64,000 nt of DNA from Adhaeribacter rhizoryzae (GTDB taxonomy: Bacteria; Bacteroidota; Bacteroidia; Cytophagales; Hymenobacteraceae): the NCBI RefSeq assembly GCF_008629685.1, contig NZ_VWSF01000001.1:558001-622000 (forward strand). The letters run 5' to 3'. The translations under genes and the position numbers were made by a program. The stretch's first letter is position 1, and every line of letters starts with the position of its first letter. The notes under the pieces were generated by a model. It saw only the letters and a list, made by a program, of their open reading frames with translations. It made no database searches and had not been told where the DNA came from. Positions 31,501-45,615 of this stretch are shown here, one piece after another.

Positions 31501-32169
31501 TTATGCTTTCACCACGGAGCCATCGAGCAAATCAATAACCCGGGAGCCGTAGGTGGCGTTCTTCTCAGAATGGGTTACCTGAATAATAGTGGTGCCTTCC
31601 TGGTTCAGGCGTTGAAAGAGTTCCATTATTTCTTCGCCCTGGCGGGAGTTGAGGTTGCCGGTAGGTTCATCGGCCAAAATCAATTTGGGCGAGGCTACTA
31701 CTGCCCGGGCAATTCCTACTAATTGCTGCTGTCCGCCCGAAAGCTGCGTGGGAAATAAATCTTTTTTACCAACAATATTAAATTTATCCAGAATATCGGC
31801 CACTTTGGCTTTGCGGTCCGAAGATTTTACGTCCTGGTAAAGCAAGGGCGTCTCAATATTTTCGTAAACGGTTAATTCATCAATTAAATGATAACTCTGA
31901 AATACAAACCCGATAAAACTTTTGTGGAGTTGGGTGCGCTCTTTTTCCTTAATCTTATGTACCGGCTTGTCTAAGAAATAATATTCGCCGCTGGAGGGCT
32001 CTTCCAGCATACCAATAATATTCAGCAGCGTCGATTTTCCGGAACCCGATGGGCCCATAATGGAGATAAATTCGCCTTCCTGTACTTCCAGGTTAATGTT
32101 ACGGAGCACGTAGGTGCGCGAGAAACCACTGGCGTAATATTTATCGATATCTTTCAGGGTAATCAGCAT
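31501..32169 (-). CDS. LolD/MacB-type ABC transporter ATPase
   Basis: This 222-residue ATPase has Walker A GPSGSGKS at 39-46, a Q loop ([19 protein letters not shown]), signature LSGGQQQ and Walker [11 protein letters not shown], all typical of the LolD/MacB/FtsE group that pairs with MacB-type permeases. It lies downstream of two such permeases but is separated from them by the DUF4097 gene and two terminators, so it may have its own promoter. It likely energises those permeases. Confidence 0.93.
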
Positions 32170-32292: not shown

Positions 32293-33234
32293 TTACATCC
32301 GGTAAGCTAATTCGGTGGTGCCACCCGAAGTGCTTAGTTTTACCGGAATGCCGCCGCCATTTACCCGACCTTTCACCCGGTTGGTTTCGGATTCGCCGTC
32401 GAAGTTGGTAAGTGTAGTTTTTACGCGGTTACCGCTTAAATCTAAGTCCAGGCCCTGACCTTTAGGTACGGTAGCATGAACGCTGCCGCCGCTGGTGTGC
32501 AGGTTTAAATATTTGCCCAGTTGGGTTACATCGGCGTGAATGCTGCCGCCACTGGTGCGGGCATCAATATCGCCGGCTACTTTTTGCAGTTGAATGCTGC
32601 CGCCCGAAGTCCGGGCTTTTAACGTGCCCCGGGCATCCGATAACACAATAGAGCCGCCGCTGGTATTAGCATCCAGGTTGCCCTGGTATTGGTTTAATGT
32701 AATACTGCCACCGGAAGTGTTGGCTACCGCATTACCCTTAATATTTTTTAGGGTAATGCTGCCGCCGCTGGTTTTGGCTTCCTGCGAGCCGGTAAGGTTG
32801 GCCAGGCTAATGCTGCCGCCGCTGGTGTTTAATTTGGTAGCAATATTTTCGGGTATCTGTATTTCAAAAGAAACATTCAAAGCATCATCGTTATTCCATT
32901 TCCAGTTTTTTTCTTTGCGTTCGGCTACAGCGTAAACGGTATTGCCTTCCTGGCGCACATCAAACGTATATTTATCCAAGGCTTCTTTAGAAGGGGCTTC
33001 GTTGCGATTGCGCCAATTGGCCGGCCGCACAAACATTTCTACCTTAACCTGGTTGCCCGCACTACCGGTAACTTTAATGCTGCCACCCGAGGTTTTGGTT
33101 ACCAGGTTGCCGCCGTTGTTTAAACTAAAGTTTTTAACCAGATAAGGTTTTTGTTTATCGTCTTGGGAAAAAGCTAATAGGGTAGTAGATAGTACCGCTG
33201 CCACAACAACCAGGGCAAAGATTAATTTTTTCAT
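32293..33234 (-). CDS. DUF4097-family exported repeat protein
   Basis: This 313-residue protein has a signal peptide (cleavage after LLAFSQ, about residue 24) and a repetitive beta body in which TSGGSI or a close variant recurs about ten times from residue 48 onward at roughly 18-20 residue spacing. This is the DUF4097 beta-helix-like architecture, often encoded beside envelope stress systems. It sits between the ABC permeases and the ABC ATPase, so a link to that transporter is likely by context, but its molecular role is unknown. Confidence 0.88.
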   Translation of the reverse strand: MKKLIFALVVVAAVLSTTLLAFSQDDKQKPYLVKNFSLNNGGNLVTKTSGGSIKVTGSAGNQVKVEMFVRPANWRNRNEAPSKEALDKYTFDVRQEGNTVYAVAERKEKNWKWNNDDALNVSFEIQIPENIATKLNTSGGSISLANLTGSQEAKTSGGSITLKNIKGNAVANTSGGSITLNQYQGNLDANTSGGSIVLSDARGTLKARTSGGSIQLQKVAGDIDARTSGGSIHADVTQLGKYLNLHTSGGSVHATVPKGQGLDLDLSGNRVKTTLTNFDGESETNRVKGRVNGGGIPVKLSTSGGTTELAYRM

Positions 33235-33742: not shown

Positions 33743-36154
33743 TTATTCGGTGCGCAGACTTTTGATGGGGTTGGTAGAGGCGGCCCGGTGCGCCAGGTAA
33801 CTAACGGTAACCAAAGTAAACAATAACGAAATAAAGCCGGCTAGTAAGAAAATCCAGGGGCTGATGGTAATGCGGTACGGGAAATCTTGTAACCAAGTAT
33901 GCATGGCGTACCAGGCAATGGGGGTGGCAATTAAGATGGCAATTAGCACCAGTTTGGTAAAATCTTTGGTGAGGAGCAAGGTGATTTGGGCTACCGAAGC
34001 ACCCATTACTTTCCGGATGCCAATTTCTTTGGTGCGTTGCTGCGCCGAAAAAGCCACTAAGCCCAGCAAACCTAAACAGGCAATAAATATAGCCAGCCCC
34101 GCAAAAATGGTAAATACCTGGCTGAGTTTACGTTCCGATTCTACCATTTTCCCAAAATATTCATCCAGAAAATTGTACTCAAAAGGATATTCCGGGGCAA
34201 AAGTTTTCCAGGTTTTTTCGAGGTGCGCCAAGGTAGCCGGAATATTACCGGGCCGCATCCGGATAGTTATTTGGTTGAAAGTACCGGGGTAAACGTGCAT
34301 GATAAACGGCTCTATTTTCTGGTGCAGCGATTTAAAATGAAAATCTTTTACTACCCCCACTACTTTCCCTACTTTCAGTTTGTCCGGCTTCAGCCATTCA
34401 TCCCAAATAATTTCATTTCCCAAGGCTTTTTCAGGAGTGCCAAAACCTAGCTCTTTTGCCGCAGTTTCGTTTATAATATAGGCTTGCTGTTCATCGGTTT
34501 TATAGCTTTTAGAAAACGGCCGGCCGGCTACTATTTGGAGTTTCAGGGTGGAGATATAATCGTAATCTACGGTAAACATGCTGATGGGCCGGTTGTCTTT
34601 ATCACCCCGCAGCCGGATGCCGTCGCCGGCTACTACGCCGCCGGGTTCGCCGTATGAAGCCGATGCCGCAACAATATTGGGGTTGCGCAAAAGCTCGGTT
34701 TTTACTTGTTCGGAGGCTTGCTGCATTTTATCGCCTTGCATATTAAAAACCAATAATTGGTCTTTATCGAACCCCAAATCTTTCTGCTGCAGGTAATTTA
34801 ATTGCCGGTATACAATAGCCGTAGCGGCAATTAAAGCCACCGATATCACAAACTGGGTAATGACCAGCACTTGCCGTAAAGCCGAAAGCCGAAAACCTTT
34901 ACCGGTATTGTTACTTTTTAAAACATCGATGGGCAGGAAAGAAGATAAAAAGAAAGCTGGGTATAGGCCGGCCAACAAGCCGACCGGAATACTGCATAAC
35001 AGCAACCCCGCTACTACCAGAAAATCCTGGCCTAAGTGCAGCCTCAAGGTTTCGCCGGAAAGTTCGTTAAAGTAAGGCAAAGCCAGTTCTACAATAGGAA
35101 TAGCCAGTAAAAATGCTACCAAGGTCATCAGGATCGATTCGCCTAAATATTGCAGAATAAGCTGGCCTTTGTGGGCGCCGATTACCTTACGCACGCCTAC
35201 TTCTTTGGCGCGTTTTAAAGAACGGGCCGTAGCTAGATTCATAAAATTAAAGCAGGCAATTACCAGAATAAACAAAGCAATAACGGCAAAGGCATATACA
35301 AAATTAATGTTACCCCGGTTAGGCTGGTCGTATTCTAAGTGGCCGGAATGCAGGTAAATATCTTTTACCGGCTGCAAATGGAAAACATCGTTAATTCCGG
35401 CTTTAGCTGTAATGGGGGCAACTTCTTTCTCCGTAAAGCGGGCCAATTTTTCTTCGAAGTCAGGGCCCGATGTATTATTTTTTAGGCGGACGTAGGTATA
35501 AAACTGGTGCCAGTTCCAGCTTTGCAGCCGTTCCGGAAAAAATTGCCGCGCAAAAGCAAAAGAAAGAATGATATCGGCTTTTAGATGCGTAGGCGTTTTA
35601 GGCTTCGCCAGCACCCCAGTTACTTTTAATTTTGTATCGTTGTTCAGGCTAATAATTTTGCCGATCGGGTTTTCCGAACCAAAATATTTTTGGGCAACAA
35701 CATCCGAAATAATAACCGCATCCGGGGCGTTAAGCGCGGTTCGGGCATCGCCGTGCTGCAGTGGTAAGGTTAATACCTGTAGAATAGAAGAATCGGCGAG
35801 GTAAAGATTATCTTCATAAAATTCATGCGCTTTGTATTCTATCAGGTTGCCAGGTAATATTATCAGGCGGGCAGCAGCTTCTACTTCCGGAAAATTTTTG
35901 ACCAAGGTTGGCGCTACCATGGGCGGTGTTAAGGTGAGCCATTGCTGTTGGTCACTTTTTTTATTTTCGGTTACAACGCGGTAAATATTATCGGCTTCTT
36001 TGTGGTGGGTATCGTAACTGAGCGATGTGCGCACGTACAAGAAGATAACCAAACAACAGGCAATGCCAATGGCCAGACCTATAATATTTATGAAAGAATA
36101 AAATTTATGACGGAACATGTTCCGGATAGCCAGTTTCAAATAATTCTTCAGCAT
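33743..36154 (-). CDS. MacB/FtsX-type ABC transporter permease (803 aa)
   Basis: This is a long, double-module permease: N-terminal membrane helix (about 20-43), a MacB periplasmic domain (about 45-250), three helices (about 285-400) with the RAKEVGVRKVIGAHKGQL coupling motif, a helix at about 430, a second periplasmic domain and three C-terminal helices with RTKEIGIRKVMGASVAQI. Such proteins act as mechanotransmission pumps for lipoproteins, peptides or lipids. It follows the first permease by 61 bp. Confidence 0.92.
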   Translation of the reverse strand: MLKNYLKLAIRNMFRHKFYSFINIIGLAIGIACCLVIFLYVRTSLSYDTHHKEADNIYRVVTENKKSDQQQWLTLTPPMVAPTLVKNFPEVEAAARLIILPGNLIEYKAHEFYEDNLYLADSSILQVLTLPLQHGDARTALNAPDAVIISDVVAQKYFGSENPIGKIISLNNDTKLKVTGVLAKPKTPTHLKADIILSFAFARQFFPERLQSWNWHQFYTYVRLKNNTSGPDFEEKLARFTEKEVAPITAKAGINDVFHLQPVKDIYLHSGHLEYDQPNRGNINFVYAFAVIALFILVIACFNFMNLATARSLKRAKEVGVRKVIGAHKGQLILQYLGESILMTLVAFLLAIPIVELALPYFNELSGETLRLHLGQDFLVVAGLLLCSIPVGLLAGLYPAFFLSSFLPIDVLKSNNTGKGFRLSALRQVLVITQFVISVALIAATAIVYRQLNYLQQKDLGFDKDQLLVFNMQGDKMQQASEQVKTELLRNPNIVAASASYGEPGGVVAGDGIRLRGDKDNRPISMFTVDYDYISTLKLQIVAGRPFSKSYKTDEQQAYIINETAAKELGFGTPEKALGNEIIWDEWLKPDKLKVGKVVGVVKDFHFKSLHQKIEPFIMHVYPGTFNQITIRMRPGNIPATLAHLEKTWKTFAPEYPFEYNFLDEYFGKMVESERKLSQVFTIFAGLAIFIACLGLLGLVAFSAQQRTKEIGIRKVMGASVAQITLLLTKDFTKLVLIAILIATPIAWYAMHTWLQDFPYRITISPWIFLLAGFISLLFTLVTVSYLAHRAASTNPIKSLRTE

Positions 36155-36215: not shown

Positions 36216-38594
36216 TTACTCTACCCGCAAGTTCTTTATGGGATTAGCAACGGCCGCTTTAAAGGTGCGGGCCGCAATGGTAAGCAGCGCCAGCAACAAC
36301 GTAGCCAAACAGGGCAGCGCAAACAACCACCAGTTCAACGAAATGCGGTAAGGAAAATCTTGCAGCCAGGTATTAATAGCGTAATATCCTACCGGTACCG
36401 AGATGAAAAAGGCCAGGGCTACCACCTTTGTAAAATCGGTAGAAAGCATGAGCACAATATCCGAGACGGCCGCGCCAAATACTTTGCGGATGCCAATTTC
36501 TTTGGTGCGTTGCTGAATAGCCAAAGTAGCTAACCCGAATAAACCAATGCAGGAAATAAATATCGATAAAACAGCGCCCACGGTTATGAGTTGTTTCCAC
36601 TTGGCTTCCTGCTCGTAATTTTTTTCGTTCAAGACATTTATAAAATCGAACTCAAAAGGTTTAAAAGGAAGAACTTTGCGGTGTGTTTGGGCCAGTACCT
36701 TCAGGGTTTGGGGAATATTTTGGGGCTGCATTTTCACCCAAACATCGCCGGAACCAACTACAAATAGCTGCGGACCAATTTTTTCTTTTAAAGAAGCATA
36801 ATGATAATCTTTTACCACGCCCACTACGGTCATGGGGTTAGGATTGCCGTTTACGTTGTAGAGCTTTTTACCAACAGGATTACGCCAGCCGGCGGCTTGG
36901 GCAAAGGTTTCGTTTATGATAACTGCATTTTCGGCATCGGCCGGGAAATCTGGTGAAAAGTTGCGGCCTTTTACGATTGGAATTTGCAGGGTGGGCAAAA
37001 AGTTTTCATCAATCCGGCTAAAAGCAAATTCTATTTCTTTGCCAGCTACTTTAACTACCGTATAATTTTGGCCGGCATCTTTGGTAGCTACCCACTGGAT
37101 GTTGGGATTCTGGGCTAATTCGTTTTTAAATAATTTAACCTCCTCAGCATGGGGCCCGCGGCCTAAATGAATAACCGCCAGATTTTCGTCGTGGTAGCCT
37201 AAATTTTTATGCGTTAAAAAATTAAATTGGTCGTAAACGGCCAAAGTGGCAATCATCAGAAAAGAAGTTACCGCAAACTGAAATATTACCAGACCTTTAG
37301 CTAAGTAGCCGTTGCCATTAAATTTATAGCGGTGTTGCAGCACCATGATAGGCTTAAAACTCGATAACACCAGCGCCGGGTAAAAACCTGCCAGAAATCC
37401 AGTTAACAGAAATAAACCCAGGTAACCGGCCACCAGTTTAGTATTGAGGAGGTAAGGCAAGCTCAGGCGTTTATTCGCTACTTCGTTAAAAAACGGCAAC
37501 GATAGTTCTACCAATACCACGGCCAAAGCAAAAGCCAGGAAACACAACAAAAACGATTCGCCTAAAAATTGAAAAGTAAGCTGCAAGCGGTTGCCACCAA
37601 TTACTTTCCGGATGCCAATTTCTTTGCCGCGTTTAAGCGAATGCGCTACGGTTAGGTTTACAAAATTAATGCAGGCAATAAGCAGCATAAAAATAGCGAT
37701 ACCGGTTAAAATATAAGCATAAACCGGGTTACTGCCGTACTTTAAGCCGTTCCGGACATCGGCATAAGCGGTATCGAGGTGAATTTGCAATAAGGGTTGC
37801 AGGCCAAATTGAATGCTGTTTTTAAAATCAAACTTTGCTTTGGCTTCCTGTAACTCTTCCCGGACTTGTTGCAGAAATACCTGGTTTAGTTTGGGTGCCA
37901 CCTTCTCCGGATTGGCCAAAGGGTTTAAAACCACAAACGTGTTCATGTAAAAGCCTAGCCACGCGTTATCAGGAAAATGGGTTTCGGTATATTTAAAAGG
38001 CAGCAACACCTCGAACTGTAGCGATGAGTTTTGGGGCGGATTTTTAGCAATGCCCGTTACTACAAACGGCTTAAAGGTATCGCCCATTTTCAGCTCAAGG
38101 GTTTTGCCAATGGCCGTTGCATCACCGAAATATTTTTGGGCGGTTTTTTCGGTAAGCACCAGGGAGTTGAGGTTACTTAAGGCTTTTCTGGGGTTGCCGG
38201 CCAGTAGGGGTAAAGAAAAAACAGAGAAAATACTTTCGTCGGCGAATACTACTTCCTGGTTAAAAGTGTTTTCCTGCTGCCGCACAATGTAAAAGTCTTC
38301 CTGCATTCGCACAAAGGCTTCTATTTCGGGTATGGCTTGTTTAAACGATGGCCCTACTACCATGTTGGTACTGCCGGTTTTGGTTACTTCGCCTTCGTTA
38401 ATAATATTGGCTGTTACCCGGTAAATCCGGTCTTTCTTCGCGTGAAAACGGTCGTAGCTGACTTCGTCTTTGATGTACAAAAAAATAAGCATGCAGCACG
38501 CCAACCCTAGACTCAGGCCCCCAATATTAATAAAGGAAAAAACTTTGTTTCGCCAAAGGTTGCGAAAAGCCAGTTTAAAGTAGTTGTGTAGCAT
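36216..38594 (-). CDS. MacB/FtsX-type ABC transporter permease (792 aa)
   Basis: This protein shares the architecture of its downstream neighbour: MacB domain, two FtsX modules with RGKEIGIRKVIGGNRLQL and RTKEIGIRKVFGAAVSDI coupling motifs and about eight membrane segments. The pair probably arose by duplication. It is the first gene of the minus-strand ABC operon, and two TGTTC-N6-GAACA operators lie 218-255 bp upstream. Only a weak -24/-12-like sequence (38620-38633) faces it. Regulation by the NtrC-type regulator at 42.9 kb is inferred. Confidence 0.92.
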   Translation of the reverse strand: MLHNYFKLAFRNLWRNKVFSFINIGGLSLGLACCMLIFLYIKDEVSYDRFHAKKDRIYRVTANIINEGEVTKTGSTNMVVGPSFKQAIPEIEAFVRMQEDFYIVRQQENTFNQEVVFADESIFSVFSLPLLAGNPRKALSNLNSLVLTEKTAQKYFGDATAIGKTLELKMGDTFKPFVVTGIAKNPPQNSSLQFEVLLPFKYTETHFPDNAWLGFYMNTFVVLNPLANPEKVAPKLNQVFLQQVREELQEAKAKFDFKNSIQFGLQPLLQIHLDTAYADVRNGLKYGSNPVYAYILTGIAIFMLLIACINFVNLTVAHSLKRGKEIGIRKVIGGNRLQLTFQFLGESFLLCFLAFALAVVLVELSLPFFNEVANKRLSLPYLLNTKLVAGYLGLFLLTGFLAGFYPALVLSSFKPIMVLQHRYKFNGNGYLAKGLVIFQFAVTSFLMIATLAVYDQFNFLTHKNLGYHDENLAVIHLGRGPHAEEVKLFKNELAQNPNIQWVATKDAGQNYTVVKVAGKEIEFAFSRIDENFLPTLQIPIVKGRNFSPDFPADAENAVIINETFAQAAGWRNPVGKKLYNVNGNPNPMTVVGVVKDYHYASLKEKIGPQLFVVGSGDVWVKMQPQNIPQTLKVLAQTHRKVLPFKPFEFDFINVLNEKNYEQEAKWKQLITVGAVLSIFISCIGLFGLATLAIQQRTKEIGIRKVFGAAVSDIVLMLSTDFTKVVALAFFISVPVGYYAINTWLQDFPYRISLNWWLFALPCLATLLLALLTIAARTFKAAVANPIKNLRVE

Positions 38595-38811
38595 CGCCTT
38601 GTTTTTACAATTTACTTATGCCGATAATCTTCCGGAAATAGTGCTTAAGCCAGTTTAATATTTTACTAAAACGGCCAAACAAGCATACTATCCTATATTA
38701 GAAAGCTTGGTCAAGATGGTTTCTTTTAGTCTTAATACTTAGGCCAATTTATATGCCATTAAAATAATTTATTGATTATCAGATATTTATTAAACAAAGC
38801 AGCTTGTTGCC

Positions 38812-38827
38812 TGTTCATAGTTGAACA
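38812..38827. promoter_or_regulatory. Operator 1: TGTTC-N6-GAACA
   Basis: TGTTCATAGTTGAACA, a 16-bp dyad that extends to CTGTTC/GAACAG. Its centre is 22 bp from operator 2, two helical turns. It is about 200 bp upstream of the -24/-12 element, as expected for an enhancer. Confidence 0.72.
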
Positions 38828-38833
38828 GTTTGC

Positions 38834-38849
38834 TGTTCGGGCGTGAACA
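38834..38849. promoter_or_regulatory. Operator 2: TGTTC-N6-GAACA
   Basis: TGTTCGGGCGTGAACA, identical in its ten outer bases to operator 1 and to the two sites upstream of the response regulator, but with an unrelated spacer. Confidence 0.72.
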
Positions 38850-39028
38850 GGTTTTGTAATAGCTGGAGAAAAGTATTTATTTCTAAGCAGCCAGCGCGCG
38901 CTTTAGCAGCCATATTATTTAAATAAAACAAACTTCTTACTTCAAGCGAATTTAAATTACCCATAACTATGAATTAATACGTAGCTTTGCTCGTTACATA
39001 AGTAGTATTACGGATAGGGCTTCAGGGC

Positions 39029-39043
39029 TGGCTGTATTATTGC
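39029..39043 (+). promoter_or_regulatory. Sigma-54 (-24/-12) promoter upstream of the desaturase
   Basis: TGGC-N7-TTGC with exact GG-N10-GC spacing, followed by T. It matches the RpoN core consensus. Transcription would start near 39055, about 160 bp before the desaturase ATG. Confidence 0.7.
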
Positions 39044-39215
39044 TTTTTATCCTAATATTCTATCGGTCAAAGATTTAGTTTGTGGCCGCCTGTAAAAAGA
39101 CCTTCTGTTAATTTAATCTAATTCATTATCTGCTATGCCGGCACGGTAATATTTTTGATAACCTTAGTTGCGGGAATTTCTCTTTTTATTTTTTATTTAT
39201 TCCCAACTATAGTAT

Positions 39216-40334
39216 ATGTCATCAAAAGTAAAATTCATAAACACGCATCAATCTCAATTTTTTGCAACTGTCCGGCAACGGGTCGATAACTATTTTAAAG
39301 AAAACAATATTTCGAAGCATGCCAATACGGCCATGTGGGGTAAAGTAATATTTTACTTAACCGGTTTTTTAACGCTTTATCTGCTTATTTTATCTAACCA
39401 GTTTAGCCTCTGGACCATGTTTGGGCTGGCTTTGCTGCTGGGCGTTTTTTGTGCCTTTATTGGCTTTAATATTTGCCACGATGCGGTGCACGGCTCTTTT
39501 TCTGCTAACCAGAAAGTAAACAAAGTATTTGGTTTTGTATTTAATCTCATTGGGGCTAGTCCGTACGTGTGGAGCATTACGCATAATGTGGTGCATCATA
39601 CCTATACCAATATTCCGGGCCACGACGAAGATATTGATGTAGCCAAAGGCCTCATTCGGATTTCGGAAGAAGAAAAGGTAAATAAATTGCAGCGGTATCA
39701 GCACCTTTACGCTTTTGCCTTGTATAGTTTTGCTTCTATTTCCTGGGTGTTCCGCAAAGACTTTGTCAAGTTTTTTCAGAAAAAAATAGGAGAACATGCC
39801 AGCCCGAAGCATCCTAAAAAAGAATATTTTAACCTGTTCTTTTACAAGGCTATTTATTATTTTTTCTTTATCGGGTTGCCGTTGCTGGTGTTAAATATTA
39901 CCTGGTGGCAGTTTCTGATTGGGTTTATTTGTATGCACCTGGCCGAAGGATTGGTAATGGGATTGGTATTTCAGTTGGCGCACGTAGTAGAAGGTACCGA
40001 TTTTCCGGTGCCCAATGTACAAGGCAACATGGAAGAAGCCTGGGCCGACCACCAGATGCGGACCACGGCTAATTTCTCAACGCAAAGCAAAATGGCCGGC
40101 TTTTTACTTGGTGGCCTGAACCGGCAAATAGAGCATCATCTTTTTCCCAAATATTGTCATATTCATTACCCGGCTATTTCGGTTATATTAAAAAAAACGG
40201 CTCTGGAATTTAACTTGCCTTACCTCGAAAGCCCTTCATTTGGAGCCGCCTTGCGATCGCATTACCGGATGCTTAAAAAATTTGGTAAACACGCTTATTC
40301 AGAGCGCGAAAAGCAAGCTTTAATGGCTGCGTAG
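39216..40334 (+). CDS. Membrane fatty acid desaturase (acyl-lipid/acyl-CoA type)
   Basis: This 372-residue di-iron desaturase has three histidine boxes: H88-DAV-H92, H123-NVV-HH (127-128) and QIEHH ending at 307-308. The Gln in the third box is typical of front-end and related desaturases. Several membrane helices surround the boxes. It would introduce double bases into membrane acyl chains and so tune fluidity. A sigma-54 promoter and NtrC-type operators upstream suggest control by the regulator at 42.9 kb (inference). Confidence 0.92.
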   Translation: MSSKVKFINTHQSQFFATVRQRVDNYFKENNISKHANTAMWGKVIFYLTGFLTLYLLILSNQFSLWTMFGLALLLGVFCAFIGFNICHDAVHGSFSANQKVNKVFGFVFNLIGASPYVWSITHNVVHHTYTNIPGHDEDIDVAKGLIRISEEEKVNKLQRYQHLYAFALYSFASISWVFRKDFVKFFQKKIGEHASPKHPKKEYFNLFFYKAIYYFFFIGLPLLVLNITWWQFLIGFICMHLAEGLVMGLVFQLAHVVEGTDFPVPNVQGNMEEAWADHQMRTTANFSTQSKMAGFLLGGLNRQIEHHLFPKYCHIHYPAISVILKKTALEFNLPYLESPSFGAALRSHYRMLKKFGKHAYSEREKQALMAA

Positions 40335-40549
40335 GTTTACCATAACATTCTTAAATTATTAATATTATTCTGGGCTTCGCAGCCGTAAAGTAACCTATTA
40401 ATAATATTTAATTCCGGGTAGTTTTTTGCCTGGTTAAAGGTTGGCTGAAGCAGATGTTTTAGCCGGCCGGTTTAAAATAAATCTTTTATTTTGAACGAAG
40501 TACAGTTAAAAAAAATAGTTAACGTATACCTTAATATAACAACCAGCTT

Positions 40550-40702
40550 ATGAACTTAATATTCTTGTTTTCTTTGTTGATTGTAGCCGGAATGGTTATT
40601 AATCTTAAATATATAGCAGAGGCAGTACGCAAATTGCTGGTGCCTCAGCGGCAGTTAGTGCCGCAAACAGCCCCGGTGGGAAATTCCATCGAAAAAAAGT
40701 AA
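40550..40702 (+). CDS. Small single-pass membrane protein (50 aa)
   Basis: A 50-residue frame starts MNLIFLFSLLIVAGMVINLK, a clear hydrophobic helix, and continues with a basic amphipathic segment (YIAEAVRKLLVPQRQ) and a polar tail. The layout resembles small inner-membrane proteins with a cytoplasmic C-terminus. It is not recognised as a family. Same-strand position between the desaturase and the small genes that follow is suggestive only. Confidence 0.5.
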   Translation: MNLIFLFSLLIVAGMVINLKYIAEAVRKLLVPQRQLVPQTAPVGNSIEKK

Positions 40703-40897
40703 TAGGCCTTGTGCTTATACAATATTCCTGGTTAGCGAAGAGAATAAATTCTCTTTGCTAACTTTTAGTAATATATAACTTCTGAAACCAGGTACCTGGC
40801 TCTTCTAAATATTTCGGCCAGCCTCATGCTGCCTTGCTATTACCTGCCTTCATCTACCGCGCTAAATTTCTTATTAACCAACTTTTATTTTAAAAAC

Positions 40898-41077
40898 ATG
40901 CCTAAAAATTTCAAAACGGGTGATTCCGTAATTCTTAAATCTGGTAATAAAATGATGACCGTTGATTACCTAACCAAAACCGGCCTTTACAACTGCCGCT
41001 GGTACGAAGGCATGGCCTTGAAAGAGGCGACTTTTAACCCCGAAGACTTGTTGCTGAAAAATCGGAAGCATGGTTAA
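40898..41077 (+). CDS. DUF2158 (YodC-like) small protein
   Basis: The 59-residue protein matches the DUF2158 pattern: FKTGDSVILKSGNKMMTVDY at the N-terminus, then a CRWYEG core and an F-x-PEDLLL end. The ATG at 40898 was chosen because the pattern starts there; an upstream in-frame ATG would add an unrelated hydrophobic stretch. The family has an SH3-like fold and no established function. Confidence 0.85.
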   Translation: MPKNFKTGDSVILKSGNKMMTVDYLTKTGLYNCRWYEGMALKEATFNPEDLLLKNRKHG

Positions 41078-41133
41078 ATAACCATTGTTTAGATAATATT
41101 TTTTATAATAAATTTTAAATTAAAGTGTAAAGT

Positions 41134-41391
41134 ATGGTAGCGAGTAAAGAAATAATACCCCTGGACGATGTTAAAAAAGAGATGCTGGAGTTTTGTTTAG
41201 AACCGCAGAACCAGAAAACCATATTAGAACACATTCAGGTACCGGTTTCTACTGATAATTACAAAAGGTATGTGGCCGTGTTGTTGAAGCAACGATTTAT
41301 TAAATCGGACCAGGATCGAAACCGGAATTCTATAAAACAACAATACGTAATCACCCAAAAAGGCTTAAACTACCTGAAAGCCATTTCCTGA
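41134..41391 (+). CDS. Small winged-helix-like protein (85 aa)
   Basis: The sequence reads as a winged helix: helices EMLEFCLEPQNQKTILEHI and YKRYVAVLLKQRF, then a beta wing (IKQQYVITQKGLNYL). It resembles the C-terminal winged helix seen in Fic-type and related proteins, but stands alone. DNA binding is plausible and no target is known. It lies 56 bp after DUF2158 and may share its transcript. Confidence 0.65.
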   Translation: MVASKEIIPLDDVKKEMLEFCLEPQNQKTILEHIQVPVSTDNYKRYVAVLLKQRFIKSDQDRNRNSIKQQYVITQKGLNYLKAIS

Positions 41392-41501
41392 TAAACTACT
41401 CTCTCTTTTTTCTTACGCAATAATTTACTGCCGCAATATTTTTGCTTTCAGTAGTAGTTGCGCTGTTACTGCACCGGAACGCCGCCTTTTTTTCAATTCT
41501 T

Positions 41502-42068
41502 ATGTCTACTGATTTCGTTAAAAGCCCTATGCAGCTTAAATATGAGCTGGATAAAATTAATATTGAACTTGTTTCGTTGCTGAAAAACTGGAAGAAGAAA
41601 AAGAATGAATATTTAGCCCGCCTCGTCGGGTACCGGGCCGAATTAAAAGAATTTAAAGCGGTTTTAGCAGCTACCGAAGAAGGTCATAAATCCTTTCTGG
41701 ACCTGGTACATCCCATTCTGGAATTATCAATTCTGGAATTATCAAACGCATCTGACAATAACGTAAGTCCTGTTTCCGGTACAGAGCCGCCGGTGCTGGC
41801 TAAAGGCGAAACAAATTACCTGCGCCAATTAAAAGAATTTGTTAAGGCGGCTCAGGAAAAAGAAACCGCGCGTATAACGCAGGCCAGGAGCGTTTACAAA
41901 ACCAACTCGGAGCATATATTGCGTAAAACAAAAGAGATTTATAGGGCTATGGAAGAAGAAAAAGGGCAAGTAGATGCTTATGCCGTTATTCTGACCAACA
42001 ATTGTAAGGCTACCGAAAAGCAACTAGAGGTTCAATTAAAAACGAGCGGCATTGGTATTGGTTTATAG
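41502..42068 (+). CDS. Hypothetical coiled-coil protein (188 aa)
   Basis: The protein is not recognised. It is highly charged and helical, with likely coiled coils at about 10-65 and 105-175 separated by a Ser/Pro-rich linker. No signal peptide is present. An internal tandem duplication repeats ILELS. The start at 41502 was preferred to an upstream in-frame codon that adds a hydrophobic, non-conserved-looking prefix. Confidence 0.55.
   Translation: MSTDFVKSPMQLKYELDKINIELVSLLKNWKKKKNEYLARLVGYRAELKEFKAVLAATEEGHKSFLDLVHPILELSILELSNASDNNVSPVSGTEPPVLAKGETNYLRQLKEFVKAAQEKETARITQARSVYKTNSEHILRKTKEIYRAMEEEKGQVDAYAVILTNNCKATEKQLEVQLKTSGIGIGL
41715..41744. repeat. Perfect 15-bp in-frame tandem duplication
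   Basis: ATTCTGGAATTATCA occurs twice head to tail inside the coiled-coil gene, adding five residues (ILELS). The perfect identity suggests a recent slippage event. Confidence 0.95.
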
Positions 42069-42177
42069 CCATGCCTAATATTTTATTAATCTTCGGGTAA
42101 TGTATCGCTAATGTTTAACCAGCTGCTGGTTGCCAAAAAACTTAATATTGCTTACACAGTTGGTTCTGGGTAAAAAA

Positions 42178-42621
42178 TCAGCGTTTAAAAACCTTCTGCA
42201 TAATAGCAATACCGTCCTGAGTCGGGAAATCTAATTTTATTTCGGTAGAAGTAATTTTTAAGGTGCCGCTATTCCGGAACGTTTTGCCATTCAGTTCCAG
42301 CGTGTAATCACCGTTTTGTAAAGCACCTAAATCAATTTTGGCGCGGGCCGGCCCTAAAGCATTCGCGCAATAATTAATTTTATCGATGCCAGAAAAATTA
42401 ATCCGGAAAAAATTTGGCTGAACTTCCTGCGTGGTAAGCAAATTGAAATTAGAGCAGGTGTACGTTTGTTCGGTAGCGCAGTACAGAAAAATTCTTTTTT
42501 CGTTAGCAATATTTACCTCAGCGGGTTCTATCTGAATGGTAGAACTAATGGGGTGCGTAGTTGCTGCTTCTTCGCAGCTCAGGAGCAGCAGCAATCCCAG
42601 AATATAGCCTATTTTGCGCAT
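42178..42621 (-). CDS. Hypothetical lipoprotein (147 aa)
   Basis: A lipoprotein signal with LLSC lipobox (Cys16) is followed by a beta-rich domain with several cysteines (residues around CATEQTYTCSNF and INYCANAL) that could form disulfides. The family is not recognised. It is divergent from the sigma-54 regulator, and the second operator pair lies in the shared upstream gap, so it might belong to the same regulon. Confidence 0.65.
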   Translation of the reverse strand: MRKIGYILGLLLLLSCEEAATTHPISSTIQIEPAEVNIANEKRIFLYCATEQTYTCSNFNLLTTQEVQPNFFRINFSGIDKINYCANALGPARAKIDLGALQNGDYTLELNGKTFRNSGTLKITSTEIKLDFPTQDGIAIMQKVFKR

Positions 42622-42742
42622 ACAGTTAGCTTTATAAAAGTAATGCCTTTATAAAAACAGACCCTAACCTTTGGCGCTTGGTTGCAAGCCAATATTTATT
42701 TAATAGCTTGGCAAACCTAAACCAATATTTAAATTCCGCAGG

Positions 42743-42758
42743 TGTTCAGTTCTGAACA
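42743..42758. promoter_or_regulatory. Operator 3: TGTTC-N6-GAACA
   Basis: TGTTCAGTTCTGAACA, extended to a 22-bp near-perfect palindrome (AGGTGTTCAG arms). It lies about 130 bp before the response regulator start and 23 bp, centre to centre, from operator 4. Confidence 0.75.
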
Positions 42759-42765
42759 CCTGTTT

Positions 42766-42781
42766 TGTTCACCGCCGAACA
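42766..42781. promoter_or_regulatory. Operator 4: TGTTC-N6-GAACA
   Basis: TGTTCACCGCCGAACA, paired with operator 3 in the same way as operators 1 and 2. A CACTTTTG sequence overlapping its right end is one base from a primary-sigma -7 box. Confidence 0.72.
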
Positions 42782-42887
42782 CTTTTGCGCAATATTTAAT
42801 ACAAAAAAGCCTAAATTAAGCCAGGCAAGCCAATCTTAAACACTGGCATTATTTCGGATAAACAAACGTATATACTCCGGCACAACA

Positions 42888-44267
42888 TTGGAAAATAACT
42901 TAGGCAAAATATTAATCATCGACGATAACGAGGACGTTTTGTTTGCGGCCAAAATGCTCCTGAAAAAGCACACGCCTACCATTTTTCTCGAAAAAAATCC
43001 CAAACGCATTCCTTTTCTGGTGAGCCAGGAAAAGTTTGATATTATTCTGCTGGATATGAATTTCAGCGAAGATATTTCGAGCGGCAACGAAGGTTTTTTC
43101 TGGTTGAAAGAAATATTAAAAATAGACCCCAAAGCGGTAGTAATTATGATTACGGCTTTCGGCAACGTAGAAATGGCCGTGCGCGCCCTGAAAGAAGGTG
43201 CTACTGATTTTGTGCTAAAACCCTGGCAAAACGAAAAATTAATTGCCACACTCTCGGCGGCGGCTAAACTAAAAAAATCTTACCAGGAAGTAGAAAGCCT
43301 GCAGCAGAAAAACTCGGCCCTCACCGAACTGAATCAGCAACCTTTTACGCTCATTACCGGCCAAAGCCACCGCATGCAATATTTGTTCGGGATGATCGAC
43401 AAAGTGGCCGATACCGATGCGGATATTTTATTATTAGGCGAAAACGGCACCGGCAAAGAAGTAATTGCCCGCACCATTCACCAAAAATCGTTGCGGGCGC
43501 ATAAGGTTTTTACCACCGTAGACATGGGCGCCGTCACCGAAACCTTGTTTGAAAGCGAGCTTTTTGGGCATAAAAAAGGCGCTTTTACCGATGCGCGCGA
43601 AGACCGCATTGGCCGCTTCGAAATTGCTAACGGCGGTACTTTGTTTTTAGATGAGATTGGTAATTTATCGTTGGCCTTGCAAGCTAAATTATTAACGGTG
43701 TTGCAGCGGCGAGAAATTATTAGAGTAGGCACCAATAAACCTATTCCGATTGATGTGCGGTTGATTTGCGCCACCAACATGCCCTTGTACAAAATGGTGC
43801 AGGAGCAAAGATTTAGGCAGGATTTATTGTACCGCATTAATACCGTAGAGTTGCAGTTGCCGGCTTTGCGCGAACGCGCCGAAGATATTCCGGCTTTGGT
43901 AATGCATTTTTTAGAAGTGTACAGCCAGAAATACAAACGCCCGCTTAAAACCATTTCGCCGGAGGGACTGAAAAAATTGCAGCGTTATACCTGGCCGGGC
44001 AATATTCGGGAATTGCAGCACGTAATTGAGCGCGCCACTATTATTAGTACTAACGCCCGACTACAGGCCGAAGATTTTTATTTTCTGGAAGAGCCTGTAA
44101 ATACCGCTTTAAAAGAAGAACCCGATACCCTGAACCTCGACGAAATGGAAAAAGATACGGTGCGGCGGGCCATGCAAAAGTTTAACGGCAACATTTCGAA
44201 AGTAGCAAAAGAACTGGGCTTGTCGCGGGCATCGCTTTACCGGCGTTTAGAAAAATATGAGCTTTAA
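42888..44267 (+). CDS. NtrC-family sigma-54-dependent response regulator
   Basis: This 459-residue activator starts at a TTG, with the receiver domain (8-125; phosphoacceptor D56, Lys110) beginning at once, so no upstream start is needed. The AAA+ domain has Walker A GENGTGKE (184-191) and a GAFTDA loop (231-236), a variant of the sigma-54-contacting GAFTGA. A Fis-type helix-turn-helix ends the protein (NISKVAKELGLSRASLYRRL). It overlaps the kinase gene by 11 bp. Two dyads upstream suggest autoregulation, and two matching dyads upstream of the ABC/desaturase genes suggest targets. Confidence 0.95.
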   Translation: MENNLGKILIIDDNEDVLFAAKMLLKKHTPTIFLEKNPKRIPFLVSQEKFDIILLDMNFSEDISSGNEGFFWLKEILKIDPKAVVIMITAFGNVEMAVRALKEGATDFVLKPWQNEKLIATLSAAAKLKKSYQEVESLQQKNSALTELNQQPFTLITGQSHRMQYLFGMIDKVADTDADILLLGENGTGKEVIARTIHQKSLRAHKVFTTVDMGAVTETLFESELFGHKKGAFTDAREDRIGRFEIANGGTLFLDEIGNLSLALQAKLLTVLQRREIIRVGTNKPIPIDVRLICATNMPLYKMVQEQRFRQDLLYRINTVELQLPALRERAEDIPALVMHFLEVYSQKYKRPLKTISPEGLKKLQRYTWPGNIRELQHVIERATIISTNARLQAEDFYFLEEPVNTALKEEPDTLNLDEMEKDTVRRAMQKFNGNISKVAKELGLSRASLYRRLEKYEL

Positions 44268-45615
44268 GAATTTCCGGGTGCAGGTGGTGCTGCGGGTGCT
44301 GGCATTGGGTTGCACACTCTGGCTTTTCCTGTACTTAGATTTTCAGGCCCGCTTTACCGGTACGCTTATTTTTCTGAGCGTATTACTATTGCTGCAAATA
44401 ATATTTCTGATTCGATACCTCGAAAAATCTAACCAGCAGCTAAATAAATTTCTCGATTCTATTCATTACGACGATTTTACCGAGACTTATTCGCCCCGCG
44501 GCGAGGGCGAAGTGTTTGATAAACTGCACCTGAAATTTAACCAGGTGCTGCAAAAATTCCGGGAAATACGCGCCGAGAAAGAAGCCGATGCGCATTATTA
44601 CCGCACGCTGGTGCACCACGTAGGCACCGGCATTATTTCGTATCATAAAAAAAACGGGCAAATTCATTTATTAAACACGGCGGCCAAACGGCTGCTGGGC
44701 GTAAACCAGTTGCACAACCTCCACGATTTAAATTTATCGGATGCCAAAGCTACCGAAACGCTGCTGCACCTCCCGCACGGCGAAAAAACTTTGCTTAAAC
44801 TGGAGCAGGGCGGGCAAATGGTGCAGCTATCGGTAAATGCTATTGAAATAAGGCTGCGGGGCGAGGAATACCGGTTATTGTCGGTACAGAATATTCAGCA
44901 GGAACTCGAAGAAAAAGAGATGGAAGCCTGGCAAAACCTGATTAAAATTCTGACCCACGAGATCATGAATTCGGTAACGCCTATTTCGTCGTTGGCGGCG
45001 AGTGTAAGCGAAGAGCTAACCGATCACCGGCAGCATCCCGACCAAAACCACCAAATCCGGAAAGAAGACTTGGGTGATATTGAGTTGGCTATGCAAACCA
45101 TTCAGCGGCGCAGCGAAGGCCTGGTAAAATTTGTACACGATTTTCGCAACCTTACGCAGGTACCCACCCCGCAATTAAATTATATTCACCTAGCCAATTT
45201 ATTTAACCGGCTGGCCTTATTGCTGAAAACAGAATTAGAAGCAAACCGCATTCTTTTACAGGTTGAGGCACCGCCGCCCGGCATTATTTTAGTAGCCGAC
45301 GAAAATTTAGTAGAGCAGGTACTTATTAATTTAATCAAGAATGCCGTTCAGGCCATGCAAGACCAACAAAACAAACAAATAAATTTATTGGCTTACCAAA
45401 ACGAAAAAGGAAGGCTGGTGCTGGAAGTAACCGATAACGGACCGGGCATTAACAAGCAAGCACAGGATAAAATATTTATTCCGTTTTATACCACCAAAAA
45501 AACTGGTTCGGGCATTGGCCTGAGCCTCTCCAAACAAATAATGCGGTTACACAACGGCACAATTTCCGTACATTCACCCGAAAATGGCGGCTGCACCTTC
45601 CGGTTACAGTTTTAA
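44257..45615 (+). CDS. NtrY-like membrane histidine kinase
   Basis: This 452-residue kinase has two closely spaced membrane helices (about 10-27 and 35-54), a HAMP-like/coiled linker, a PAS-like domain (about 115-215), H234 in LTHEIMNSVTP and an ATPase domain with LINLIKNAVQAM, DNGPGI and GSGIGLSLSKQIM. The HEIMN phosphoacceptor box is typical of NtrY/NtrB-like kinases that pair with NtrC regulators. It is translationally coupled to the preceding regulator. The tiny periplasmic loop suggests sensing within the membrane or cytoplasm. Confidence 0.93.
   Translation: MSFKNFRVQVVLRVLALGCTLWLFLYLDFQARFTGTLIFLSVLLLLQIIFLIRYLEKSNQQLNKFLDSIHYDDFTETYSPRGEGEVFDKLHLKFNQVLQKFREIRAEKEADAHYYRTLVHHVGTGIISYHKKNGQIHLLNTAAKRLLGVNQLHNLHDLNLSDAKATETLLHLPHGEKTLLKLEQGGQMVQLSVNAIEIRLRGEEYRLLSVQNIQQELEEKEMEAWQNLIKILTHEIMNSVTPISSLAASVSEELTDHRQHPDQNHQIRKEDLGDIELAMQTIQRRSEGLVKFVHDFRNLTQVPTPQLNYIHLANLFNRLALLLKTELEANRILLQVEAPPPGIILVADENLVEQVLINLIKNAVQAMQDQQNKQINLLAYQNEKGRLVLEVTDNGPGINKQAQDKIFIPFYTTKKTGSGIGLSLSKQIMRLHNGTISVHSPENGGCTFRLQF

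Follow-up and report, generated by a model that had tools for sequence, protein, structure and literature searches.

Tandem TGTTC-N6-GAACA dyads as candidate enhancers of a sigma-54 circuit for MacB/FtsX-type permeases in Adhaeribacter rhizoryzae

The 64,000-nucleotide stretch of the Adhaeribacter rhizoryzae genome analyzed here (contig NZ_VWSF01000001.1, positions 558,001 to 622,000; hereafter the window) contains two tandem pairs of the dyad TGTTC-N6-GAACA. The first pair is found between an operon of two MacB/FtsX-type permeases and a fatty acid desaturase gene, at 38812..38827 (TGTTCATAGTTGAACA, proximal to the putative permease promoter) and 38834..38849 (TGTTCGGGCGTGAACA, distal). The second lies in front of the gene for an NtrC-type sigma-54 response regulator, at 42743..42758 (TGTTCAGTTCTGAACA, distal) and 42766..42781 (TGTTCACCGCCGAACA, proximal). 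All four, to which no strand is assigned, are exact matches with the ten outer bases intact, and the centre-to-centre distance is 22 bp in the first pair (38812/38834) and 23 bp in the second (42743/42766). The dyads and their spacing of 22-23 bp are thus as a first-pass annotation of this DNA had described them, and so is the gene context: the two permeases, the desaturase, a lipoprotein-like open reading frame (ORF) and the regulator followed by a kinase are all present.

The regulator gene (42888..44267, plus strand) encodes a receiver, an AAA+ domain and a Fis-type helix-turn-helix (HTH), with matches to Pfam Response_reg, Sigma54_activat and HTH_8 above the cut-offs. Its Walker A motif is GENGTGKE, and the loop that contacts sigma-54 reads GAFTDA (amino acids (aa) 231-236). 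Of 51 regulator rows, the window's own included, 45 have GAFTDA or GSFTDA as this loop; in two the loop ends in GA, and four were left unread by the pattern. PMC4641369 counts GAFTDA among the GAFTGA variants expected to keep activity. The regulator reached no cut-off of a named NCBIfam equivalog (NtrC, ZraR, AtoC etc.) among the best 25 of 84 models. A single Sigma54_DBD match (E 1.7e-57) represents rpoN in the genome. The partner histidine kinase (44257..45615, plus strand, HATPase_c) overlaps the regulator gene by 11 bp. A simple hydropathy scan placed two hydrophobic segments near the N-terminus of the kinase, joined by hardly any loop, an arrangement that we take to be reminiscent of intramembrane-sensing kinases.

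On the minus strand, PERM1 (36216..38594, ADOP-like) is the first gene of the presumed target operon and is followed after 61 bp by PERM2 (33743..36154), both being MacB/FtsX-type permeases with Pfam matches to MacB_PCD and FtsX. On the same strand, 508 bp after PERM2, comes a DUF4097 toastrack protein (32293..33234), LiaG-like with a score below the cut-off, and then an ABC ATPase of the MacB/LolD/DarD-like type (31501..32169) with scores below the equivalog cut-offs. The LiaG-like gene and the ATPase may share the permease transcript: a terminator scan of the gap between PERM2 and the LiaG-like gene found none, although an interrupted hairpin and a T-run were seen there by eye. PERM2 also falls below the NCBIfam cut-offs for ADOP (TIGR03434, 336 vs 622.3 bits), DarB (160.2 vs 700) and MacB (67.5 vs 966), and PERM1 scores even lower on these equivalogs. 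At E 1e-100 or better there are 15 MacB/FtsX permeases in this genome (G000) and 35 in one relative. Across this genome and seven others of the genus the copies number 4 to 35 each, the lowest count (4) belonging to a genome that is 78% complete, and nine of the copies here lie within G000:C8:31611-66291.

Activators of the NtrC family use paired dyads about two helical turns apart upstream of −24/−12 promoters, and they are often autoregulated. Both flanks of every pair were scored for sigma-54-like sites of the TGGCA(C/T)-N5-TTGC type, on a scale with a maximum of 12.7. A putative −24/−12 promoter for the permease operon was found at 38744..38758 on the minus strand (TGGCATATAAATTGG, score 11.7 of 12.7), with an offset of 53 from the pair. 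It sits within a 24-bp block that is identical in the nearest relative found (genome G019), as are both dyads of this pair, and its offset falls in one of the two distance peaks described below. The permease transcript would start near 38732 on the minus strand, which would place the dyad centres at about −88 and −110. For the regulator gene, a putative weaker promoter was found at 42844..42858 on the plus strand (TGGCATTATTTCGGA, score 10.0, offset 62), with counterparts at offsets of 61 in G019 and 63 in both genome G047 and Rufibacter L068. Here the transcript start may lie near 42870 on the plus strand, with dyad centres at about −97 and −120. The pair on the regulator side is retained, with changed inner bases, in G019 and in G047, so that both pairs are conserved in the nearest relative. 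The proteins of G019 are 93-94% (regulator), 86-87% (kinase), 76-77% (lipoprotein), 91% and 96% (permeases), 94% (LiaG-like protein) and 99% (ATPase) identical to those of the window.

The dyads are far more frequent in the window than in shuffled sequence. There are four exact matches to TGTTC-N6-GAACA, compared with a mean of 0.02 in the shuffles, and none of 100 shuffles reached four. In 12 windows simulated by a Markov model, the best tandem pair deviated at 5-7 of 24 positions, while both real pairs have 0 mismatches. Across the genome, seven exact single dyads were found, including the four of the window, as against two for the reversed-pattern control. The exact single sites on contigs C9, C23 and C34 lay on pieces without a homolog of the regulator or the permeases, where only a weak 23% kinase match (L151) was seen. 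Single dyads with one mismatch and purine/pyrimidine (R/Y) inner bases were barely more numerous than the control genome-wide (34 vs 25). It follows that the signal is carried by the tandem pair and not by the single dyad, and a regulon of single dyads was rejected on the same count. Exact tandem pairs (gap 3-12) occur twice in the 6.5-Mb genome, both times in the window, and no further pair was found. Genome-wide, the motif of the first-pass annotation thus stands out as a tandem pair but not as a single one-mismatch dyad.

Public genome contigs were then scanned for the dyad pair (gap 3-12), and at least 117 loci were obtained; all class counts given below are among the matches listed. The pairs were divided by their inner bases into class B (TGTTCR-N4-YGAACA, 54 loci), pairs with C as the inner base (C-inner, 39 loci) and others (24 loci). 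A homolog of the regulator, the kinase or the permeases was present on the fetched piece for 39 of the 54 class-B pairs (regulator 19, permease 31). Such homologs were beside none of the 39 C-inner pairs and beside 7 of the 24 others. The spacing was 20-24 bp in 51/54 class-B pairs and 24-28 bp in 37/39 C-inner pairs, and 23 of the 39 C-inner pairs had a CACGTG core. Class-B pairs with these homologs nearby come, among others, from Sphingobacterium, Parapedobacter, Saprospiraceae, Flavobacteriales, Ignavibacteria, Kapaibacterium, Kordiimonadales, Emcibacteraceae, SAR86/K189A and Pseudomonadales. The presence of similar paired sites in such distant bacteria suggests that a sigma-54 circuit switching on efflux pumps may be widespread. 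Near-identical TGTTC-N6-GAACA pairs were also seen on two contigs of Lokiarchaeota metagenome-assembled genomes (L009, L024), whose fetched pieces had no homolog of a window protein. Seven Acidobacteriaceae contigs (L010, L029, L032, L054, L099, L114, L118) carried tandem TGTTCCCATGGGAACA or related pairs at a spacing of 25-28 bp, with three dyads in a row in L032 and L054. The Acidobacteriaceae pairs are possibly parS-like or belong to another system.

Promoter-like sites were found at preferred distances from the class-B pairs. Sites scoring at least 11 within 250 bp were present on 34% of class-B sides and on 4.3% in Markov shuffles; the values were 6.5% vs 4.4% for C-inner pairs and 17% vs 4.1% for the others. 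Sites scoring at least 10 occurred at 34-81 bp in 40 of the 54 class-B loci and in the equally wide interval of 234-281 bp in 4. In the same test, the two intervals gave 4 and 4 of 39 for the C-inner pairs and 6 and 4 of 24 for the others. The 41 class-B sites at 35-80 bp were concentrated at 52-53 bp (18), 63-64 bp (12), 71-75 bp (4) and 39 bp (2), and the remaining five lay at 44, 55, 56, 61 and 65 bp. The peaks are stepped by about one helical turn. A Rayleigh test gave p ~5e-11 at 10.5 bp, a value inflated by near-copies. Since it was below 1e-6 at every trial period from 9 to 12, the test does not single out one exact helical period, while the peaks at 52-53 and 63-64 bp stand. Promoters at such fixed distances from the pairs point to a sigma-54 activator. 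The enhancer role proposed by the first-pass annotation gained support here: in the window one site at a preferred distance faces the permease operon and one faces the regulator.

To see which genes follow these sites, 59 class-B loci were considered (the 54, the window, three repeats of genomes already included and G042), and in 45 of them a promoter-like site lay at 34-82 bp. Classified by their longest early ORF, the 46 sides with such a site comprise 14 with a permease, 8 with an HlyD/MacA-like adaptor, 4 with an ABC ATPase, 4 with the regulator (from two genomes that both count twice) and 16 with an unclassified ORF. Two unclassified first genes that were tested proved to be outer-membrane efflux proteins; others were an M61/M1-like peptidase, an S41 peptidase and a beta-lactamase-fold hydrolase. 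The core output would thus be MacB-type efflux. At three loci of the Owenweeksia/Cryomorphaceae type (L060, L075, L101), the first gene after the promoter encodes a small secreted-looking protein of 118-119 aa, and the one tested (L060) had no Pfam match.

The association was also seen when the motif was left out of the search. The regulator was used as a query against 80 Bacteroidota genomes, its own among them, and 20 matches at E 1e-135 or better were obtained in 15 genomes, including the window's regulator. Among the 19 other matches, two of which are paralogs from this genome, 13 carried, in the 600 bp upstream, a tandem dyad equalled by at most 2% of 100 base shuffles; three of the 13 are mutual near-copies, and the pair of L192 is about 560 bp upstream. 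The link drawn by the first-pass annotation between the pairs and the regulator was thereby strengthened, as the pairs recur with relatives of the regulator and with MacB/FtsX permeases across phyla.

Several observations weigh against this reading. The exact strict pair is rare: it was found in 2/296 Bacteroidota genomes and in 5/200 family members, own genome included in both cases (reversed control 0 in each). The R/Y class was drawn up after the loci had been inspected, and near-copies among the loci mean that the counts are not independent. Fifteen of the 54 class-B pairs have no regulator, kinase or permease homolog beside them, 14 of the 54 have no promoter-like site at 34-81 bp, and 6 of the 19 motif-blind homologs have no convincing pair within 600 bp upstream. 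The regulator promoter of the window is weak at −12, with CGGA instead of TTGC. At 12 of the 17 class-B loci with a regulator, no more than 49-81 bp separate the beginning of the pair from the aligned start of the regulator, which leaves too little room for a promoter at the usual distance on that side; such autoregulation is therefore not general.

Taken together, the two pairs very probably act as enhancers for the adjacent sigma-54 activator and drive the two permeases and the regulator's own gene. The most likely scheme is the standard one for sigma-54 promoters, in which the regulator encoded next to the pairs would act as activator and, in this lineage, would also stimulate its own gene. 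Once phosphorylated by its partner kinase, the regulator would occupy each pair with two dimers placed on roughly one face of the helix. The regulator would then form an AAA+ ring and remodel sigma-54 RNA polymerase held at the −24/−12 promoter, whose first base is about 53 bp (permease operon) or about 62 bp (regulator operon) beyond the pair. The output would be the two MacB/FtsX permeases together with more of the regulator-kinase pair, i.e. positive feedback, and we infer a role in the removal of envelope-active compounds. The earlier interpretation of the dyads was mostly correct and is supported in part; its extension to the desaturase and the lipoprotein, considered below, found no support.

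Four regulator-kinase pairs lie beside ABC genes in this genome, on C1 (the window), C12, C8 and C53. The C12-type paralog (57-60%) is present in 8/8 genomes of the genus and the window type in 2/8 (G000 and G019). A tandem dyad is found upstream of the C12 type in 6/8 rows (absent in L139, weak in L141), the first dyad approximating TGTWCG-N4-CGNACA and the second being more degenerate, and a TGGCA(C/T)-N5-TTGT site is present in 7/8 rows, not in L139. For the C8 group (53%), TGTYCG-N4-TGATAC-like repeats before the C8 and G005 regulators are a lead only, as shuffles reach the score in 9-12%. Among regulators with a pair of at most seven mismatches (9/11, 11/18, 3/3), residue A in R-x-(S/A)-LYRR went with T at half-site position 4 in 28/36 half-sites and residue T or S in 28/56; the sequences are related, and a row with T at 4/4 but no readable residue was dropped. 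That regulators with residue A tend towards the TGTTC half-site is a lead to specificity, and only that.

These paralogs bear on a broader proposal. The locus might be a Bce/Lia-like module under sigma-54 control, in which the kinase senses envelope attack via the permeases and the paralogs (window, C12, C8, C53) are insulated from one another by diverged operators (TGTTCR.., TGTWCG.., TGTYCG..TGATAC) matched to changes in the recognition helix (R-A-S/A vs R-T-A before LYRR), the cis-module extending from Bacteroidota to Proteobacteria. Bce/Lia-type modules serve antimicrobial-peptide sensing in Firmicutes through regulators of the OmpR/LuxR type. The present locus likewise has a near-loopless kinase, an FtsX-type permease and a LiaG-like protein (below cut-off), but its regulator is of the sigma-54 NtrC type. 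We regard the full proposal as unlikely.

The full regulon of the first-pass annotation, in which the pair at 38812-38849 acts in both directions and the desaturase (39216..40334, plus strand, Pfam match) is a further target, so that efflux is coupled to membrane-lipid desaturation, seems quite improbable. A sigma-54-like site facing the desaturase (TGGCTGTATTATTGC, 39029-39043) is well spaced internally and scores 11.2, and sigma-54 enhancers can work over longer range; its offset of 179, however, is beyond the cluster of 39-75 bp seen in class B. In addition, G019 keeps the dyads intact and the permease promoter conserved but has only a desaturase remnant beside them (aa 286-372, the last 87 residues, 83%; L130:1045-1305). 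Eight intact desaturase orthologs (72-80%) in six other genomes of the genus have no pair in the 500 bp upstream, the best having 8-9 mismatches, as expected by chance, and no permease homolog on the fetched pieces. Another desaturase copy, in G003, has an internal stop and split matches. The lipoprotein-like ORF (42178..42621, minus strand, 147 aa, no Pfam match), retained beside the regulator in G019 (77%), had been suggested as a possible target. No site scoring at least 10 faces it at the usual distance; the best scores 8.7 at 94, and one of 10.5 at 143 falls within its coding region. Desaturase and lipoprotein were both rejected as targets on these grounds, and the desaturase does not appear to be a conserved one.

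It is very doubtful that the operators, while belonging to the circuit, are mainly served through cross-talk by a paralogous regulator (C12, C8 or C53). The presence of four regulator-kinase pairs beside ABC genes and the similarity of the C12 operator speak for it, but G000 and G019 have both the window-type regulator and the exact pairs, and the other six genomes of the genus lack both and yet have the C12 type. Least credible, and highly improbable, is that the pairs serve a different DNA-binding protein (ParB/parS-like or a repressor) and lie near these genes by chance. In favour of this, the C-inner pairs fit the same pattern (39/117 loci), with CACGTG in 23 recalling parS, which has a CACGTG-type core between TGTTC/GAACA arms, and single dyads in this genome hardly exceed background. 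Against it, the C-inner pairs have other inner bases and another spacing, and none of them neighbours the regulator or permeases; CACGTG is absent from the four inner hexamers in the window, the spacing is unlike that of parS-like pairs, and the adjoining regulator is the recurrent neighbour.

The proposed activation by the adjacent regulator resembles known systems in several respects. NtrC, ZraR and GlrR/QseF share with it the receiver, AAA+ domain, Fis-type HTH and tandem upstream dyads, whereas here the operator is TGTTCR-N4-YGAACA, the targets are MacB/FtsX efflux genes and the loop is GAFTDA, not GAFTGA. Permease and ATPase models of the same type as in MacA-MacB-TolC and DarBCD match, and in some relatives adaptor or outer-membrane genes come first after the promoter; however, the window operon showed neither an adaptor nor a TolC gene, and the equivalog scores are below the curated cut-offs. 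In its accessible part, a 2025 study (PMC12316311) uses promoter predictions to place COG0577 permeases of Bacteroidia, Gammaproteobacteria and Opitutia under sigma-54, a link for which it claims to give the first evidence. The permease family is the same; that part names no activator or enhancer for the permeases, whereas a specific regulator and operator are proposed here. The addition to the sigma-54 prediction is thus a candidate activator and a candidate operator, and no description of this operator, or of an activator for these permeases, was recognised in the open-access literature that was searched.

MacB/FtsX permeases are numerous in these bacteria, yet their control is little covered in the literature found. 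An operator together with a promoter at preferred distances would allow candidate regulons to be read from sequence, and a single genome with several paralogous regulator-operator pairs may serve as a natural experiment on how duplicated signalling systems are kept apart.

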